From NCBI RefSeq assembly GCF_014863585.1, contig NZ_CP062253.1, positions 5,021,001 to 5,085,000 on the forward strand: a DNA stretch of 64,000 bases. Direction: 5' to 3'. The stretch is from Pseudomonas gozinkensis (lineage in GTDB: Bacteria > Pseudomonadota > Gammaproteobacteria > Pseudomonadales > Pseudomonadaceae). The notes beneath the pieces were generated by a model that was not told where the DNA came from, did no database searches, and saw only the letters and a list, made by a program, of their open reading frames with translations. This document shows, piece by piece, positions 26,362 through 53,062 of this stretch. Positions within the stretch are counted from its first letter, which is position 1. Each line of letters starts with the position of its first letter. Both the position numbers and the translations under genes were made by a program.

Positions 26362-26453
26362 CTGTGGGAGCTGGCTTGCCAGCGATGAGGTCGGCACATC
26401 CAATATGGATATCCGCTGACCTACCGCCATCGCTGGCAAGCCAGCTCCCACAA
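26362..26453. repeat. REPIN, GCTGGC family
   Basis: TGTGGGAGCTGGCTTGCCAG and its inverse face outward around about 45 variable bases. It lies between gap and the ECF sigma gene. Confidence 0.9.
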
Positions 26454-26482
26454 GGTCAATTATTCCAATTTGAAATCAGGGC

Positions 26483-26516
26483 TTGACCACTCGACTAGAT
26501 GATAAGCATTATCATT
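26483..26516 (+). promoter_or_regulatory. ECF sigma gene promoter with Fur box
   Basis: GATGATAAGCATTATCATT (26498-26516) closely matches the 19-bp Fur box. It overlaps a candidate promoter, TTGACC (26483-26488) and CATTAT (26507-26512) 18 bases apart. This predicts iron repression of the haem uptake genes. Confidence 0.85.
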
Positions 26517-26541
26517 CGCTCGAAATGGATCAGGTCCTCCC

Positions 26542-27060
26542 GTGAGTCAATCACACTTCAACCACGTCTTCCTCGCCCAGCGCACGTCGCTGCTGCGGAC
26601 CCTGGAACGGATGGTCAACAACCACAGCACCGCCGAAGACCTGTTGCAGGAAACCTACCTGCGCGTCACCCGGGCGCTGAGCGAACGGGCCATCGATCAC
26701 CTTGAACCCTTTGTCTTCCAGACCGCGCGCAACCTGGCGCTGGACCATTTGCGTGCGCGCAAGATTCATTCGCGCACCATGGTCGACGACGTGCCGCAGG
26801 ACGTGGTGCACAGCGTCGCCGCCCCCGCCAGCAGCGCCGAAGACGCCGCCCACGCCGAACAATTGCTGGAGCGCCTGAACGTGAGCCTCGGTGAACTCAG
26901 CCCGCGCCAACAGCAAATCTTCATCCTCAGCCGCCTGCATGGGCACAGTTATCAGGAAATCGCCGAAGAACTGAGCGTGTCCCTCAGCACGGTGCAGAAA
27001 GAACTCAAACTGATCATGACCATCTGCATCGGTGTCGCCGAGCGTTTGAATAGTGACTGA
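26542..27060 (+). CDS. hxuI: FecI-type ECF sigma factor of the haem uptake system (HxuI-like)
   Basis: A 172-aa extracytoplasmic-function sigma factor of the iron-starvation group. Region 2 spans about 10-75 (TAEDLLQETYLRVTRAL, FVFQTARNLALDHLRARK) and region 4 about 110-165 (LSPRQQQIFILSRLHGHSYQEIAEELSVSLSTVQKEL). The start is GTG; no in-frame ATG lies nearby. It heads a sigma / FecR-like / TonB receptor trio as in P. aeruginosa hxuI-hxuR-hxuA, and a Fur box precedes it. The exact name (Hxu, Hur or Has type) is by context. Confidence 0.88.
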   Translation: MSQSHFNHVFLAQRTSLLRTLERMVNNHSTAEDLLQETYLRVTRALSERAIDHLEPFVFQTARNLALDHLRARKIHSRTMVDDVPQDVVHSVAAPASSAEDAAHAEQLLERLNVSLGELSPRQQQIFILSRLHGHSYQEIAEELSVSLSTVQKELKLIMTICIGVAERLNSD

Positions 27061-27184
27061 CGCTGTAGGGCGTTTCTGTAAACCTCAGGATCGACTGCAC
27101 TGATCATCGGGCTTTGTTACCCTTGCCCGACTTTTACGCTTCACTAAAAAAACAGCCGTGCACAGACACTGCCGAGGAAACACC

Positions 27185-28150
27185 GTGACGGACACCCACC
27201 GCTCCCCTCCGCCTTCATCGGCGCAGGACGCCGCCAGCGCAATGGACCAGGCCCTGGACTGGCTCATCGTGCTCGGCAGTCCGGACGAGGAGCAGACCCG
27301 GCAATTCCATGCCTGGCTGGCGGCCGATCCGTTGAATACCGAGGCGTTCGCCAAGGCCCAGGCGATCTGGGACGGCCCGCAGATCGCCGAATGCGCGCAG
27401 AACCTCGCCGCCAAACCGAAGAAAGTCACCGTCCTCACTCGCCTGCGCCCGCACTGGAAACCGCTGGCCACCGCCGCGGTGCTGCTACTCGGGCTGTTCA
27501 GTTTCAGCAACCTGCCGATGCGTCTGCAGGCCGATCACCTGACCGTGGTCGGCGAGCGTCAGCGCCTGCAGCTTGAGGACGGCTCGAAAGTCCTGCTCAA
27601 TACCAATTCCGCGTTCTCCAGCACGATCAACGATCAGCAGCGAGTCGCGCGGCTGTATCAGGGCGAAGCGTTTTTCGAGATCCCGGCGAGCCGTAACCAG
27701 CCGCTGGAACTCGACGCCGGCCCGGTGAAAGCCAGCGTGCGCGATACCGCTTTCGCCGTGCGCTATCTGGACGGCGTGGCGCAGGTGCGGGTGCAGCGCG
27801 GCGATGTTGATCTGCGGGCGACCCGTGACGATGCGCGGGTGCGGCTGTCCGCCGGGGAAAGCATCCGCATCGGCCCGAACGGTTTCGATCGCCCGGCCAA
27901 GGTCGACGCCGCCACCGATCTGGCGTGGGTGCAGGGTCGGCTGATCTTCGAGAACTGCCCGCTGAACCAGGTGCTGGCCGAACTGCGTCGCTACTATCCG
28001 GGCTTCATCATCAACACCAACGAGCAGTTGGCCGACGTCGCCGTCACCGGCAATTACCGTCTCGACCAGCCGCTGGACGTGGTGCGTTCGCTCGCTCACA
28101 TTACCTCGGCCAAGCTTCAGGAATTCCCGGCGCTGGTGATTTTGAACTAA
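27185..28150 (+). CDS. hxuR: FecR-family anti-sigma regulator (HxuR-like)
   Basis: A 321-aa single-pass inner-membrane regulator. The cytoplasmic N-terminus (about 1-90) has the FecR N-terminal pattern ALDWLIVLGSPDEEQTRQFHAWLAADPLNTEAFAKAQAIW. A membrane helix (ATAAVLLLGLFSFSNL) is followed by the periplasmic FecR domain with the LEDGSKVLLNTNSAFS and GEAFFEIPASRNQPLEL motifs. It would receive the signal from the receptor's STN domain and control HxuI. GTG at 27185 follows CGAGGAAACACC and is preferred over a GTG at 27158. Confidence 0.88.
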   Translation: MTDTHRSPPPSSAQDAASAMDQALDWLIVLGSPDEEQTRQFHAWLAADPLNTEAFAKAQAIWDGPQIAECAQNLAAKPKKVTVLTRLRPHWKPLATAAVLLLGLFSFSNLPMRLQADHLTVVGERQRLQLEDGSKVLLNTNSAFSSTINDQQRVARLYQGEAFFEIPASRNQPLELDAGPVKASVRDTAFAVRYLDGVAQVRVQRGDVDLRATRDDARVRLSAGESIRIGPNGFDRPAKVDAATDLAWVQGRLIFENCPLNQVLAELRRYYPGFIINTNEQLADVAVTGNYRLDQPLDVVRSLAHITSAKLQEFPALVILN

Positions 28151-28169
28151 ATGAGAATTATTTTTACTC
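28149..28169 (+). promoter_or_regulatory. Possible second Fur box, upstream of hxuA
   Basis: AAATGAGAATTATTTTTACT carries a good half of the AATGAGAATTATTCTCATT-type Fur site, but the other half is poor. It overlaps the -35 part of the ECF-type promoter next to it. Confidence 0.45.
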
Positions 28170-28197
28170 GATAGCCAAAGCTCGTTCGTCTCGTTAT
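28161..28197 (+). promoter_or_regulatory. ECF-type promoter of hxuA
   Basis: TTTTTACT, 18 bases, CGTCTCGTTAT. The identical elements with identical spacing lie before the haem oxygenase gene (30904-30940). The CGTC core is typical of ECF -10 elements, so both are probably read by the ECF sigma encoded at 26542. Confidence 0.75.
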
Positions 28198-28272
28198 AGC
28201 CAATGCAATTGATTCGCATCTCGCGAGATCAATCAGCACCTATAAAGATTCGTGCGACACGGAGCGCTATCG

Positions 28273-30858
28273 ATGTCCTCACGCCTTACCCGCCAGACTT
28301 CTTCCCCTTCCCGCGTGCTGTCGCTGCTGACCGCCGCCATCCTGATGGCCGGCACCGCGCCGCTGATGGCCGCCACCGAACAGCCGACGCGCAACATGGG
28401 CGACTACTCGTTCGCCATCGGCCAGCAGCCGCTGGTGTCGGCGCTCAATGCGTTCACCGCCGTCACGGGCTGGCAGGTCGGTTTGCCGGCAGAACTGGGT
28501 CAGGACGTGTCGTCGCCGGGCGTGCGCGGTTCGCTGCCACCGGAAAAAGCCCTGGAGCGCCTGTTGGTGGGGACCAACCTGAGCTTCCGTAAACTGAGCA
28601 ACAACAACGTCGTGCTGGAAAAGCGCGCCAGCAGCGGCGCACTCAATCTTGATCAGGTGACCATCAGCGCCACCCGTCAGGAGCAGTCGATCAACAGCGT
28701 GCCAGCCACCGTCACCGTGCAGACCCGTCAGGATCTGGACCGCAACAACGTCAACACCATCAAGGATCTGGTGCGCTACGAGCCGGGCGTCTCCGTCGGC
28801 GGCGCCGGCCAGCGCGGCGGGATCAGCGGCTACAACATTCGCGGCATCGACGGCGACCGGATTCTGACTCAGGTCGACGGCGTCGAAGTGCCAGACGGTT
28901 TCTTCAACGGCCCTTACGCCAAGACCCAGCGCAACTACGTCGACCCGGAAATCATCAAGCGCGTCGAAATCCTCCGTGGCCCGGCCTCGGTGCTGTACGG
29001 CAGCAACGCCATCGGCGGCGCGGTCAGTTACTACACCCTCGACCCGGACGACATCATCAAGCCCGGCAAAGACGTCGGCGCCCGCCTGAAAACCGGCTAC
29101 AGCTCCGCCGACGAGAGCTGGCTGAAATCCGCCACCGTCGCCGGTCGCGCCGACCAGTTCGACGGCTTGCTGCACTACAGCCAGCGCGACGGCCACGAAA
29201 CCGATTCCTACGGCAGCAACAACGGCACCGGCCTTGAGCGCACCGCCGCCAACCCGGAGGACGTGAAAGCCACCAACGTGCTGGCCAAGATCGGCTGGAA
29301 CTACAACGAAGGTTCGCGCCTGGGCCTGACCTACGAAAAGTACAAGGATGATCGCGACACCGATCAGAAAAGCGCCTACGGCGGCCCGTACTTCAACGGT
29401 GCCCCGACGATCCCGGACAGCGTGCTGCCCGGCGGCATGTACCAGTGGCGCACCGGCAACGACACCATCACCCGCGAGCGTTTCGGCCTGGAGCACAGCT
29501 TCGAGTTGAACAGCCTGCTGGCGGACAACGTGAAGTGGAGCCTCAACCACCAGACCGCCAAAACCGACCAGAGCACCGACGAGTTCTACTACCCGATCAC
29601 CCGTAAAGTGCTGCGCACCCGCGACACGATCTACGAAGAGAAACAGTGGGTCTTCGACGCGCAACTGGACAAGGCATTCGCCATCGGTGACACCGATCAC
29701 GTGCTGACCTACGGCACCACCATCAAGCAGCAGAAAGTCACCGGCTCGCGCAGCGGCGACGGCACGTGCCTGGCGGTCGGTCGCGGCTGCACCGCCATCG
29801 GCGCCACCAGCGCGGCTGACGTACTGAAAAAATCCAGCGACTTCCCGGACCCGACCATCAACACCTACAGCCTGTTCGCCCAGGATCAGATCAGCTGGAA
29901 CAACTGGACCTTCCTGCCGGGCCTGCGCTACGACTACACCCAGCTCAAGCCGCACATCACCCAGGAATTCCTCAACACCGTGGCCGCCGACGGCAACGGC
30001 ACAGTCAGCGACAAGAACAAGACCTGGCATAAAGTCTCGCCGAAATTCGGCCTGACCTACGCACTGACCGAAAACTACACCTGGTACGGCCAATACGCCG
30101 AAGGCTTCCGCACCCCGACCGCGAAAGCGCTGTACGGCCGCTTCGAGAACAGCACCACCGGCTACAACGTGGCGCCGAACCCGGACCTGGAACCGGAAAA
30201 AAGCAAAAGCTATGAAACCGGCCTGCGCGGCAACTTCGAGCAAGGCTCGTTCGACGTGGCGGTGTTCTATAACAAGTACCGCGACTTCATCAACGAAGAC
30301 GCCGTCACCCCGGGCTACAGCGAGCTGACCTTCCAGTCCAGCAACATCAAGCACGCGACCATCAAGGGTGCGGAAGTCAAAGGTCGCCTGAACCTCGATT
30401 CGTTCGGCGCGCCACAGGGCCTGTACACCCAGGGTTCGATCTCCTACGCCTATGGACGCAACAACGACAACGGCGAGCCATTGAACAGCGTCAATCCGCT
30501 GACCGGCGTGTTCGGTCTGGGTTATGACCAGGACAACTACGGCGGCCTGCTGAGCTGGACCGTGGTCAAGAAGAAGGATCGCGTCGACGACAGCAACTTC
30601 AAGTCGCCGGACGGCGTCAGCAGCCAGTTCAAGTCGCCGGGCTTCGGCGTTCTCGATCTGGCCGGTTATTACAAGGTCACCGACGACGTCACCGTCAGCG
30701 GCGGCATCTACAACCTGACCGACAAGAAATACTGGCTGTGGGATGACGTGCGCGGTTACGACAGCGTCGGCGAAGCGTCGGTGACACAACCGGCCAACCT
30801 CGATCGCCTGACCCAGCCGGGTCGCAACTTCGCGATCAATCTGGTCTGGGATATCTGA
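28273..30858 (+). CDS. hxuA: TonB-dependent haem/haemoprotein receptor with signalling domain (HxuA-like)
   Basis: An 861-aa outer-membrane receptor. A signal peptide (cleavage near LMAA/TEQP) precedes an STN signalling domain (about 45-120; FAIGQQPLVSALNAFTAVTGWQ), then the TonB box region (LDQVTISATRQ), the plug (VRYEPGVSVGG, VEILRGPASVLYGSNAIGGAVSY) and a beta-barrel ending NFAINLVWDI. GFRTPTAKALYG and APNPDLEPEKS correspond to the FRAP/NPDL boxes of haem receptors. It lies downstream of the sigma and anti-sigma genes and is followed by haem oxygenase. The ATG at 28273 follows GGAG. Confidence 0.92.
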   Translation: MSSRLTRQTSSPSRVLSLLTAAILMAGTAPLMAATEQPTRNMGDYSFAIGQQPLVSALNAFTAVTGWQVGLPAELGQDVSSPGVRGSLPPEKALERLLVGTNLSFRKLSNNNVVLEKRASSGALNLDQVTISATRQEQSINSVPATVTVQTRQDLDRNNVNTIKDLVRYEPGVSVGGAGQRGGISGYNIRGIDGDRILTQVDGVEVPDGFFNGPYAKTQRNYVDPEIIKRVEILRGPASVLYGSNAIGGAVSYYTLDPDDIIKPGKDVGARLKTGYSSADESWLKSATVAGRADQFDGLLHYSQRDGHETDSYGSNNGTGLERTAANPEDVKATNVLAKIGWNYNEGSRLGLTYEKYKDDRDTDQKSAYGGPYFNGAPTIPDSVLPGGMYQWRTGNDTITRERFGLEHSFELNSLLADNVKWSLNHQTAKTDQSTDEFYYPITRKVLRTRDTIYEEKQWVFDAQLDKAFAIGDTDHVLTYGTTIKQQKVTGSRSGDGTCLAVGRGCTAIGATSAADVLKKSSDFPDPTINTYSLFAQDQISWNNWTFLPGLRYDYTQLKPHITQEFLNTVAADGNGTVSDKNKTWHKVSPKFGLTYALTENYTWYGQYAEGFRTPTAKALYGRFENSTTGYNVAPNPDLEPEKSKSYETGLRGNFEQGSFDVAVFYNKYRDFINEDAVTPGYSELTFQSSNIKHATIKGAEVKGRLNLDSFGAPQGLYTQGSISYAYGRNNDNGEPLNSVNPLTGVFGLGYDQDNYGGLLSWTVVKKKDRVDDSNFKSPDGVSSQFKSPGFGVLDLAGYYKVTDDVTVSGGIYNLTDKKYWLWDDVRGYDSVGEASVTQPANLDRLTQPGRNFAINLVWDI

Positions 30859-30866
30859 TCCGGATG

Positions 30867-30908
30867 ACCTCACGGCGCGCATGCATTGCCGCGCCGTGAG
30901 GTTTTTTT
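30867..30908 (+). terminator. Rho-independent terminator after hxuA
   Basis: ACCTCACGGCGCG and CGCGCCGTGAGGT form a perfect 13-bp stem with a 10-base loop, followed by seven T. Its T-run also forms the start of the -35 element of the next promoter. Confidence 0.94.
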
Positions 30909-30940
30909 ACTGTCCGGCGCTTGCCCGTACGTCTCGTTAT
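30904..30940 (+). promoter_or_regulatory. ECF-type promoter of the haem oxygenase gene
   Basis: TTTTTACT-N18-CGTCTCGTTAT, the same as before hxuA. It begins inside the terminator T-run and ends 29 bases before the haem oxygenase ATG. Confidence 0.72.
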
Positions 30941-30969
30941 CAAGCGCCTCTTCTTTTCAAGGACATCTC

Positions 30970-31566
30970 ATGAGCACCCCGGAAAAAGCCCTGCGTTCGC
31001 AACGCCTGAACCAGATCACCCACGAGCCGCACAGCAAGCTCGACGCGCTGGTCAAGGCCCACGCGCCGTTCGAGACCCGCGCCAATTTCGCCCGGTTCGT
31101 GGTCGCGCAGTACCTGTTCCAGTCGGAACTGGTGTCGCTGTACAACGATGCCGAACTGACCGACATCGTCCCTGACCTGCCGGCCCGCTGCCGCGCCGAA
31201 GCGGCCAGGGCCGACCTCGCCGACCTCGACACCGAAGTGCCTGCGCCAGTGGCCGGCGCGGTGAAAAACCCGAGCAAGGCCCGCGCCCTGGGCTGGATCT
31301 TCGTGTCCGAGGGTTCCAAGCTCGGTGCTGCGTTCCTGATCAAACGTGCGGTGGCGCTGGACCTGAGCGAAACCTTCGGCGCCCGTCACCTGGGCGAGCC
31401 TGAAGGCGGTCGCGCCGAAGGCTGGAAGAGCTTTGTGCGCACCCTCGATTCGCTGCAATTCAGTGCCGAAGAGGAAGCCGAAGTCGAGCAAGGCGCGATT
31501 GACGCGTTCAACCGCTTCACCGTGCTGCTGGAACAGGCTTACGCCAAAGAAGCCGAACCGGCCTGA
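30970..31566 (+). CDS. hemO: Biliverdin-producing haem oxygenase (HemO/PigA-like)
   Basis: A 198-aa haem oxygenase, the same length as P. aeruginosa PigA/HemO, which opens haem to release iron, CO and biliverdin. The proximal haem ligand is predicted as His21 in NQITHEPHSKL, and the distal helix is LGWIFVSEGSKLGAAFLIKRA. Asn14 and the Phe in GWIFVSEG correspond to PigA residues tied to delta/beta cleavage, so non-alpha biliverdin is plausible. The ATG at 30970 follows AAGGACATCTC. The gene sits just beyond a terminator and has its own ECF-type promoter. Confidence 0.92.
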   Translation: MSTPEKALRSQRLNQITHEPHSKLDALVKAHAPFETRANFARFVVAQYLFQSELVSLYNDAELTDIVPDLPARCRAEAARADLADLDTEVPAPVAGAVKNPSKARALGWIFVSEGSKLGAAFLIKRAVALDLSETFGARHLGEPEGGRAEGWKSFVRTLDSLQFSAEEEAEVEQGAIDAFNRFTVLLEQAYAKEAEPA

Positions 31567-31587
31567 GCCACACCGGACACAAAACCC

Positions 31588-31678
31588 TGTGGGAGCTGGC
31601 TTGCCAGCGATGACGGCGCGTCAGACAACATCCGTGTCGACTGACCGGACGCTATCGCTGGCAAGCCAGCTCCCACAA
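31588..31678. repeat. REPIN, GCTGGC family
   Basis: TGTGGGAGCTGGCTTGCCAG and its inverse face outward. It lies between hemO and the DUF454 gene. Confidence 0.9.
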
Positions 31679-31735
31679 GGAGTTGCGTAAGTCTGTAAGA
31701 TTCCTGCCCTGTCTCATAAGCCTCTCGCTGAGCCC

Positions 31736-32131
31736 ATGCCCCAACCCGCCTCCTCCCGACTCGCCCGCCTGCTGTTCGGCCTGCTCGCCTATGTCAGCCT
31801 CGGCATCGGCCTGATCGCCATCGTCGTGCCCGGCCTGCCGACCACCGAGTTCATCCTGCTCGCCGCCTGGGCCGCGACCCGCAGTTCGCCGCGCCTGAGT
31901 GCCTGGCTGGAAAACCACCGGCTGTTCGGCCCGATCCTGAGCAACTGGCGCAACGGCAAGATCATCGCCCGCAAGGCCAAGGTCAGCGCCACCGTCAGCA
32001 TGTTGCTGTGCGCCACGCTGATGCTGGTGATGCTCGATCACGGCTGGCCGATCTATCTGGCGATTGCAGGGATGATGATGGGCAACCTGTGGATCTGGTC
32101 GCGACCGGAAACGTTGCCGAAGATTTCCTGA
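31736..32131 (+). CDS. DUF454 (YbaN family) inner-membrane protein
   Basis: A 131-aa small membrane protein. Two hydrophobic stretches near the N-terminus (LLFGLLAYVSLGIGLIAIVVPGLPTTEFILLAAW) carry the family motif GLPTTEFILLAAWAATRSSPRL. RLFGPILSNWRNGKIIARKAK and a further C-terminal membrane hairpin follow. Its function is unknown. Members are often found near haem or iron genes, and here it follows haem oxygenase. Confidence 0.85.
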   Translation: MPQPASSRLARLLFGLLAYVSLGIGLIAIVVPGLPTTEFILLAAWAATRSSPRLSAWLENHRLFGPILSNWRNGKIIARKAKVSATVSMLLCATLMLVMLDHGWPIYLAIAGMMMGNLWIWSRPETLPKIS

Positions 32132-32312
32132 TTTTTCCCTTGTTTTCAGGGCTTTTACCCGCGCAAACGTTTAGCCATGACCGTTCGTCGGCATGCCGCT
32201 CATGCGTCCTCGCCCTGCGCCGATGAGCCTTGAATGGCGCTGAATGGATTTGGCGAACCGGGCACCTCCCCTGCCCCGTAGCCAACAGTTCATTCATTCG
32301 CGAGAACGTCCC

Positions 32313-52550: not shown

Positions 52551-52802
52551 GGACTAGTAGACCGACTAAGTACTAGAAAGGGCAGGAAAACCGGGGCCTT
52601 CGCGGGGCTTGTTTTTCCTCCCGTAGTTGGCGTAGAGTTTGTCCACTGTGTTTGCATGGGTCAGCTTGGAATCGTGACCTGGGCAGTAGCCTACAAGTTA
52701 GCTACATCCCGTTCGACGTCTTCTTACTCTCCTGCAACCAGCCCCAGTACTCTTTCATGAGAAGGAGACTGTCATCAATTTTTGCGTCAAAGGAAATAAG
52801 AA
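52551..52802 (+). promoter_or_regulatory. Probable long 5' leader of the cold-shock mRNA
   Basis: About 250 non-coding bases precede the cold-shock ATG, ending in a strong AAAGGAAATAAGAA ribosome site. Long structured leaders are typical of cspA-family mRNAs. No ORF or other gene is seen in the 404-base spacer. Confidence 0.5.
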
Positions 52803-53015
52803 ATGTCCACACGTCAGAGCGGTACCGTCAAGTGGTTTAACGACGAGAAAGGTTTTGGTTTTATCACTCCAGAAAGCGGTCCGGATCTGTTCGTGCATTT
52901 CCGCGCCATTCAGGGCAACGGCTTCAAGAGCCTGAAAGAAGGCCAGAAAGTGACCTTCGTTGCTGTGCAGGGCCAGAAAGGCATGCAAGCTGATGAAGTC
53001 ATCGCAGAAGCCTGA
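52803..53015 (+). CDS. Cold-shock-domain protein (CspA/CapB family)
   Basis: A 70-aa single cold-shock-domain OB-fold protein that binds single-stranded RNA and DNA. RNP1 KGFGFITP and RNP2 DLFVHFRAI are intact, and the [13 protein letters not shown] opening is typical of the family. It is monocistronic, with a long leader and a strong terminator. Which pseudomonad paralogue it is cannot be told by eye. Confidence 0.95.
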
Positions 53016-53027
53016 TTTTCTGTAACG

Positions 53028-53062
53028 AAAAAGCCCCTGATATTGATATCAGGGGCTTTTTT
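53028..53062 (+). terminator. Rho-independent terminator after the cold-shock gene
   Basis: AAGCCCCTGATAT and ATATCAGGGGCTT form a long perfect stem with a 2-base gap, followed by a T-run. Confidence 0.95.

Follow-up and report, generated by a model that had tools for sequence, protein, structure and literature searches.

Two copies of a two-part element, TTTTTACT-N18-CGTCTCGTTAT, lie in the window (the whole 64,000-nucleotide stretch of DNA analysed here), one before a gene for a TonB-dependent haem receptor and one before a gene for a haem oxygenase, which raises the question of whether they are promoters of the neighbouring FecI-like sigma factor. The features are collected in Table 1, where hxuI, hxuR, hxuA and hemO are names given by analogy. 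Three parts of a FecI/FecR/FecA-type signalling system are present: an ECF sigma factor with regions 2 and 4, an adjoining FecR-type protein and a receptor with an STN domain. The sigma protein scored 53 bits against the FecI equivalog, below its cut-off of 260, while the hxuA product reached 539 bits against TIGR01786 (cut-off 323.75) and 31.5 bits for STN (cut-off 28.4); the hemO product gave zero NCBIfam matches. The HxuI/Ecf7 gene order, sigma-fecR-receptor with hemO, was seen in the window and in its relatives. An Rfam search returned zero known RNA families at the locus; elsewhere in the window, it matched the cspA thermoregulator at 52656-53062 (+), with 80.1 bits against a gathering score of 78.

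Table 1. Features of the haem locus in the window, with the relocated hemO of two related genomes in the last row
Feature	Position	Strand	Basis or remark
Fur-box-like site before sigma gene	26501..26519		14/19 to a 19-base Fur consensus, joint best in window
ECF sigma factor gene, HxuI/Ecf7-like	26542..27060	+	Pfam Sigma70_r2, r4_2; TIGR02937 above cut-off
FecR-type anti-sigma/sensor gene, HxuR	27185..28150	+	Pfam FecR, DUF4880, FecR_C above cut-offs
AATGAGAATTA, Fur-like half directly before hxuA -35	28150..28160		10/11 or better at 78/116 hxuA loci
hxuA promoter -35 element, core TTTAC	28161..28168	+	Exact pair and conservation
hxuA promoter -10 element, core CGT[CT]	28187..28197	+	Exact pair and conservation
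Dyad AATGCAATTGATTCGCATC at hxuA start site, conserved, possibly a Fur operator	28202..28220		Absent at hemO
hxuA, TonB-dependent haem receptor, N-terminal STN signalling domain	28273..30858	+	Pfam STN, Plug, barrel
Predicted intrinsic terminator, hairpin 30868-30901 and T-run 30902-30908	30868..30908	+	Folding
hemO promoter -35 element, five T common to terminator	30904..30911	+	Exact pair and conservation
hemO promoter -10 element	30930..30940	+	Exact pair and conservation
hemO, haem oxygenase	30970..31566	+	Pfam PF01126, E 1.3e-22
Relocated divergent hemO, promoter kept	L155 3535-4251 and like place in L156

The first-pass annotation had described identical 8- and 11-base elements with an equal 18-base spacer of differing sequence, and this proved exact: the window contains matches at 28161-28197 (+) and 30904-30940 (+), whose first base precedes the first base of the start codon by 112 bases at hxuA (28273) and by 66 at hemO (30970). 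CGTC is the core of ECF -10 elements. One hundred dinucleotide-preserving shuffles of the window gave a mean of 0.00 matches, and the whole genome (6,563,527 bases) held two at zero mismatches and still two at up to three, against none for a backwards control; the shuffle result and the genome-wide uniqueness of the pair rule out a chance repeat. TTTAC-N17..20-CGTCTCGT found the same two sites only. At three mismatches, a shorter pattern gave six matches against 15 in its control, two of the six being shifted reads of the hxuA and hemO sites, and another shortened pattern gave six against six, two of which were again these sites. A larger regulon by this motif was rejected for this genome, the other matches being scattered, weak and at or below control level; a regulon of more degenerate sites may exist. 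We also rejected a sigma-70 promoter at either site, as a scan of 26400-32200 yielded a single candidate, at 26483-26512 before the sigma gene, which is no excess over shuffles.

In the comparison that the first-pass annotation had suggested, the motif recurs in other genomes before hxuA and hemO homologues. The nearer comparison set comprised the best 80 loci of 290 confirmed HemO relatives in named genomes; all 80 are titled Pseudomonas, and, having been chosen as the nearest to the window, they are closely related and non-independent. None of the genomes examined is titled P. syringae, and two of the near loci are titled P. viridiflava. TTTTTAC-N19-CGTCT stood before hxuA at 80/80 of these loci and before hemO at 79/80; since the TTTTTAC and CGTCT columns are invariant by selection, these match rates are the evidence. 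Among 75 distinct hemO sequences, the -10 element continued with C (80%), G (97%), T (97%), T (99%) and A (95%). Parts of the hemO spacer also showed conservation in this set, at 99-100% for positions 9, 14 and 24, so the stretch between the elements is not free spacer.

The wider family set covered 39 of 48 HxuI genomes in 40 fetched stretches, of which G124 gave two and those of G174 and G170 were truncated; 36 stretches held an hxuA homologue and 26 a downstream hemO; the hxuA homologues of L147 and L148 are weak (27% and 36% identity). Within the 420 bases searched upstream, TTTAC-N18/19-CGT[CT] preceded hxuA in 36/36 and hemO in 25/26 of these stretches, giving 116/116 and 104/106 over all loci. 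The spacer measured 19 bases at 114 hxuA sites and 18 at two, and 19 at 87 hemO sites and 18 at 17. A two-part motif thus stands as first described, and its limits do not: across loci, the exact 8 and 11 bases shrink to TTTAC-N18/19-CGT[CT], usually followed by NNGT. Searched on both strands of 2.44 Mb (120 loci), TTTAC-N18/19-CGT[CT]NNGT placed 217 of its 218 matches at hxuA or hemO promoters; the remaining one (L122) lies after fecR on a contig ending ahead of hxuA.

Exceptions were few. At L078, hemO lacks the motif and the hxuA-hemO gap (before 6001) contains an unrelated inverted repeat; this hemO may rely on read-through. L138 carries the motif before hxuA and not before hemO, and its sigma gene is followed by hxuA, with no fecR found. 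In L129 and L137, sigma and fecR genes are present, with neither hxuA nor the motif within the fetched 6 kb.

The motif also keeps company with the sigma factor. A comparison by hand of 198 family genomes placed HxuI (E <= 1e-40) in 48, a strict form of the pattern in 23 and both in 21; the strict pattern occurred at 35 places, against five for a reversed control. We fetched 30 of these places, including two in the genome of the window; in 29, an extrapolated hxuA or hemO start follows 58-129 bases downstream. The strict pattern is present in all nine HxuI genomes outside the region fetch (the window's own, G030, G054, G071, G079, G087, G123, G128 and G151), and each one's fetched pattern loci precede hxuA or hemO. 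Two genomes have the pattern without HxuI: the G040 match lies on a short contig, 107 bases before hxuA, and the G066 match has neither hxuA nor hemO nearby. Conversely, 27 of the 48 HxuI genomes are without the strict pattern; 23 of these carry the relaxed motif before hxuA, and G174 has it after fecR at a contig end. In G166, G140 and G170, hxuA and the motif were not found in the fetched stretches.

Strict-pattern matches off the expected places occurred once each in L139 and L140. In these neighbourhoods, hemO (60-61% identity) lies on the opposite strand, upstream of the sigma gene and divergent from it. The motif precedes this relocated gene in 2/2 genomes, with TTTTTAC kept; a moved hemO that still has the motif indicates that the motif goes with the gene and not with the place.

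The two copies differ in what abuts them. At hemO, seven T (30902-30908) directly follow a hairpin at 30868-30901, and the last five together with ACT form the 8-mer TTTTTACT. The hairpin folds to a minimum free energy of -30.1 kcal/mol (z -6.4; 0/200 shuffles equalled it); a simple terminator scan did not list it, probably because of a bulge. Counting as abutting any hairpin of -8 kcal/mol or better that ends no more than three bases from the T-run, we found one at 85/104 hemO promoters and at 1/116 hxuA promoters, with a median of -22.3 over all 104 hemO sites. All 79 motif-bearing hemO sites of the 80-locus set have such a hairpin, and six more come from other loci; the stems vary, 75 being distinct among the 79. 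Base-composition shuffles of the hemO flanks also folded to -12 kcal/mol or better in 78/395 cases, so that presence alone is weak and the claim is carried by the z of -6.4 and the 79/79 recurrence. Fifteen hemO loci, which all carry genus code g9, have TTTACG followed by N18 (14 loci) or N19 (L132) and no strong hairpin abutting it, the best being -3.8 at L126; the hemO hairpins of L114, L115, L117 and L145 are also below threshold.

In the window's lineage, the hemO -35 element coincides with the tail of a terminator-like hairpin. The first-pass annotation, which had the -35 element built from the terminator's T-run, was right about the anatomy and probably not about the origin. The -35 element stands without a terminator at hxuA, at the 15 g9 hemO loci and at the relocated hemO, making it more likely that the terminator was built onto the -35. 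Judged from these sequences, the -35 is more constant than the terminator, whose assembly most likely took place on a pre-existing, T-rich -35. Mapped on a tree of 100 sigma proteins, fusion requires at least three changes, two of them forced by well-supported branches; this is a quick tree with many weak forks, on which gain and loss cannot be told apart. The fusion is unusual and possibly merely economical.

At hxuA, the surroundings of the promoter are of another kind. Just after the -10 element, at a near-fixed distance, lies a dyad that was missing from the first-pass annotation; AATGCAATTGATTCGCAT[CT] was matched at 15 or more of 19 positions at 113/116 loci, whereas the best score among the 104 hemO sites was 13/19. 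Against the Fur consensus, the hxuA dyad scored 11 and 12 of 19, as high as 86 window positions do, and its form makes it a possible Fur operator. The leader at 28198-28272 is strongly conserved in the 80-locus set; in single folds, a short hairpin of changing sequence follows the dyad, and a near-invariant stretch then extends to the start codon. Nothing comparable to this hairpin was present at the distant loci L142 and L146. The leader may exert control at the mRNA level.

Other readings of the repeat have to be weighed against a sigma factor promoter. It could be an RNA leader or regulatory-RNA site and no promoter at all, and the unusual conservation of the hxuA leader downstream of the element in the 80-locus set would fit this. 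The two-part form with nearly fixed spacing and a variable middle, however, suits the contacts of a sigma factor; the hxuA leader dyad is absent at hemO, and the Rfam search matched nothing at the locus, so that we consider an RNA site extremely improbable. Hardly more credible is that TTTTTACT is no -35 element, being part of a Fur box at hxuA and a mere terminator tail at hemO, with only CGTCTCGTTAT mattering. TTTTTACT does follow the Fur-like AATGAGAATTA at 78/116 hxuA loci and does overlap the T-run at hemO, but the other 38 hxuA loci retain TTTAC 18 or 19 bases before CGT; in L070, L072 and L082, AATGAGAATTA is replaced and TTTTTACT kept. On the hemO side, the core persists at the 15 loci without a strong abutting hairpin and at the relocated gene, and AC follows the T-run at 79/80 hemO loci compared with 1/25 other terminator-like sites (window and eight loci). 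Retention of the -35 without AATGAGAATTA or hairpin leads us to reject a Fur box alone or a terminator tail alone.

A third possibility, unlikely in our judgement though less so than these, accepts the promoters as real and denies a private two-gene regulon: they would be common to several FecI-like sigma factors, or HxuI would have many more targets. In P. syringae B728a, deletion of ecf5 or ecf6 lowered hemO 6.7- and 7.9-fold, respectively (PMC3597554), and in P. aeruginosa 87 genes went up and 22 down when HxuI was overexpressed (PMC8768829). The effect of the ecf7 deletion on hemO was nevertheless about 30 times larger (PMC3597554), nearly all genomes with the strict motif have HxuI (21/23), and the motif stands at two genes only in this genome. 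The two sites of the motif in this genome fit the two-target regulon proposed by the first-pass annotation; the P. aeruginosa response involved many more genes.

We therefore return to the promoter reading. The nearest printed system is ecf7/PSPTO_1286 of P. syringae, where, as here, genes for the sigma factor, FecR, a FecA-like receptor and hemO lie together (strain B728a; PMC3597554). In low iron, hemO rose 427-fold and the receptor 154-fold there; deletion of ecf7 lowered them 220- and 166-fold (PMC3597554, Table 4), so both need the sigma factor. The PSPTO_1286 regulon by ChIP-seq includes haem oxygenase and receptor (Markel et al. 2013, as described in PMC3597554). The parts of PMC3597554 consulted print neither a promoter motif nor a terminator overlap; Markel et al. 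(2013) may print a motif. In Pf-5, one iron-limited medium raised the sigma gene by log2 1.70 and hemO by log2 2.28, and in another medium hemO was non-significant and the sigma gene at 0.85 (PMC3377617). The HxuI-HxuR-HxuA system of P. aeruginosa shares the ECF sigma factor, anti-sigma factor and haem receptor, and hxuA rose 66-fold on HxuI overexpression, the strongest response among the table rows listed (PMC8768829). A different, degenerate 29-base MEME motif was proposed there (PMC8768829). At seven hxuA promoters, none titled P. aeruginosa, it matched at best 18-22 of 29 positions as a raw score, and in 6/7 the best match coincided with the Fur-like dyad and missed TTTAC/CGTC.

Taken together, the two motif copies are very probably promoters that serve a haem cell-surface-signalling system. 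As the first-pass annotation had proposed, it would serve the neighbouring FecI-like sigma factor, a reading favoured by conservation at orthologues, co-occurrence with HxuI, the moved hemO and the requirement for the P. syringae orthologue at both genes. The dependence of hxuA and hemO on the sigma factor is in print for that orthologue and is proposed here by likeness. Iron shortage would cause Fur to release hxuIR, as the Fur-like box suggests; haem-bound HxuA would then signal through its STN domain and HxuR, as family knowledge implies, and free HxuI. HxuI-RNA polymerase would initiate at TTTAC-N18/19-CGT[CT] before hxuA and hemO. In the window's lineage, the hxuA -35 lacks a strong abutting hairpin; hxuA may therefore also be supplied by read-through from hxuIR and be shut by iron through the Fur-like dyad. 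The strong terminator would cut hemO off from hxuA transcripts, and hemO should consequently depend almost wholly on HxuI. Under such a division of labour, iron would control a basal level of hxuA that permits sensing, and the insulated hemO would wait for HxuI.

The fusion might also couple the two genes: polymerase stopped at the hxuA terminator would sit on the hemO -35 and be recruited by free HxuI, so that receptor transcription feeds hemO initiation, or paused polymerase would cover the -35 and hold hemO back, with selection preserving the contact between hairpin and -35 in the window's lineage, and with more than one gain, or gain and loss, of that contact. We regard this as quite unlikely. 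RNA polymerase can stay on DNA past intrinsic termination and restart nearby (PMC6978380, PMC6978322), with restarts mostly antisense in PMC6978322. These single-molecule studies concern sigma70 and two separate transcription units, and the parts consulted describe no ECF promoter on a T-run.

That such a sigma factor governs a two-gene haem regulon is already known, because deletion of P. syringae ecf7 lowers both hemO and the receptor (PMC3597554). The defined motif and the terminator/-35 fusion are possibly new. Neither was found in the literature searched, which left most subscription journals outside and is weak evidence of absence; a narrow search for printed terminator-promoter overlaps found none, which means little, and one for ECF07 promoter motifs gave nothing useful. 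What emerges is a sharp motif for the HxuI/Ecf7 sigma factor across the sampled family, differing from the one printed for P. aeruginosa. Shared by the two genes, it offers a reason for the joint rise of haem oxygenase and receptor, and the lineages with and without the fusion form a natural test bed for whether a terminator set on a promoter alters its use.
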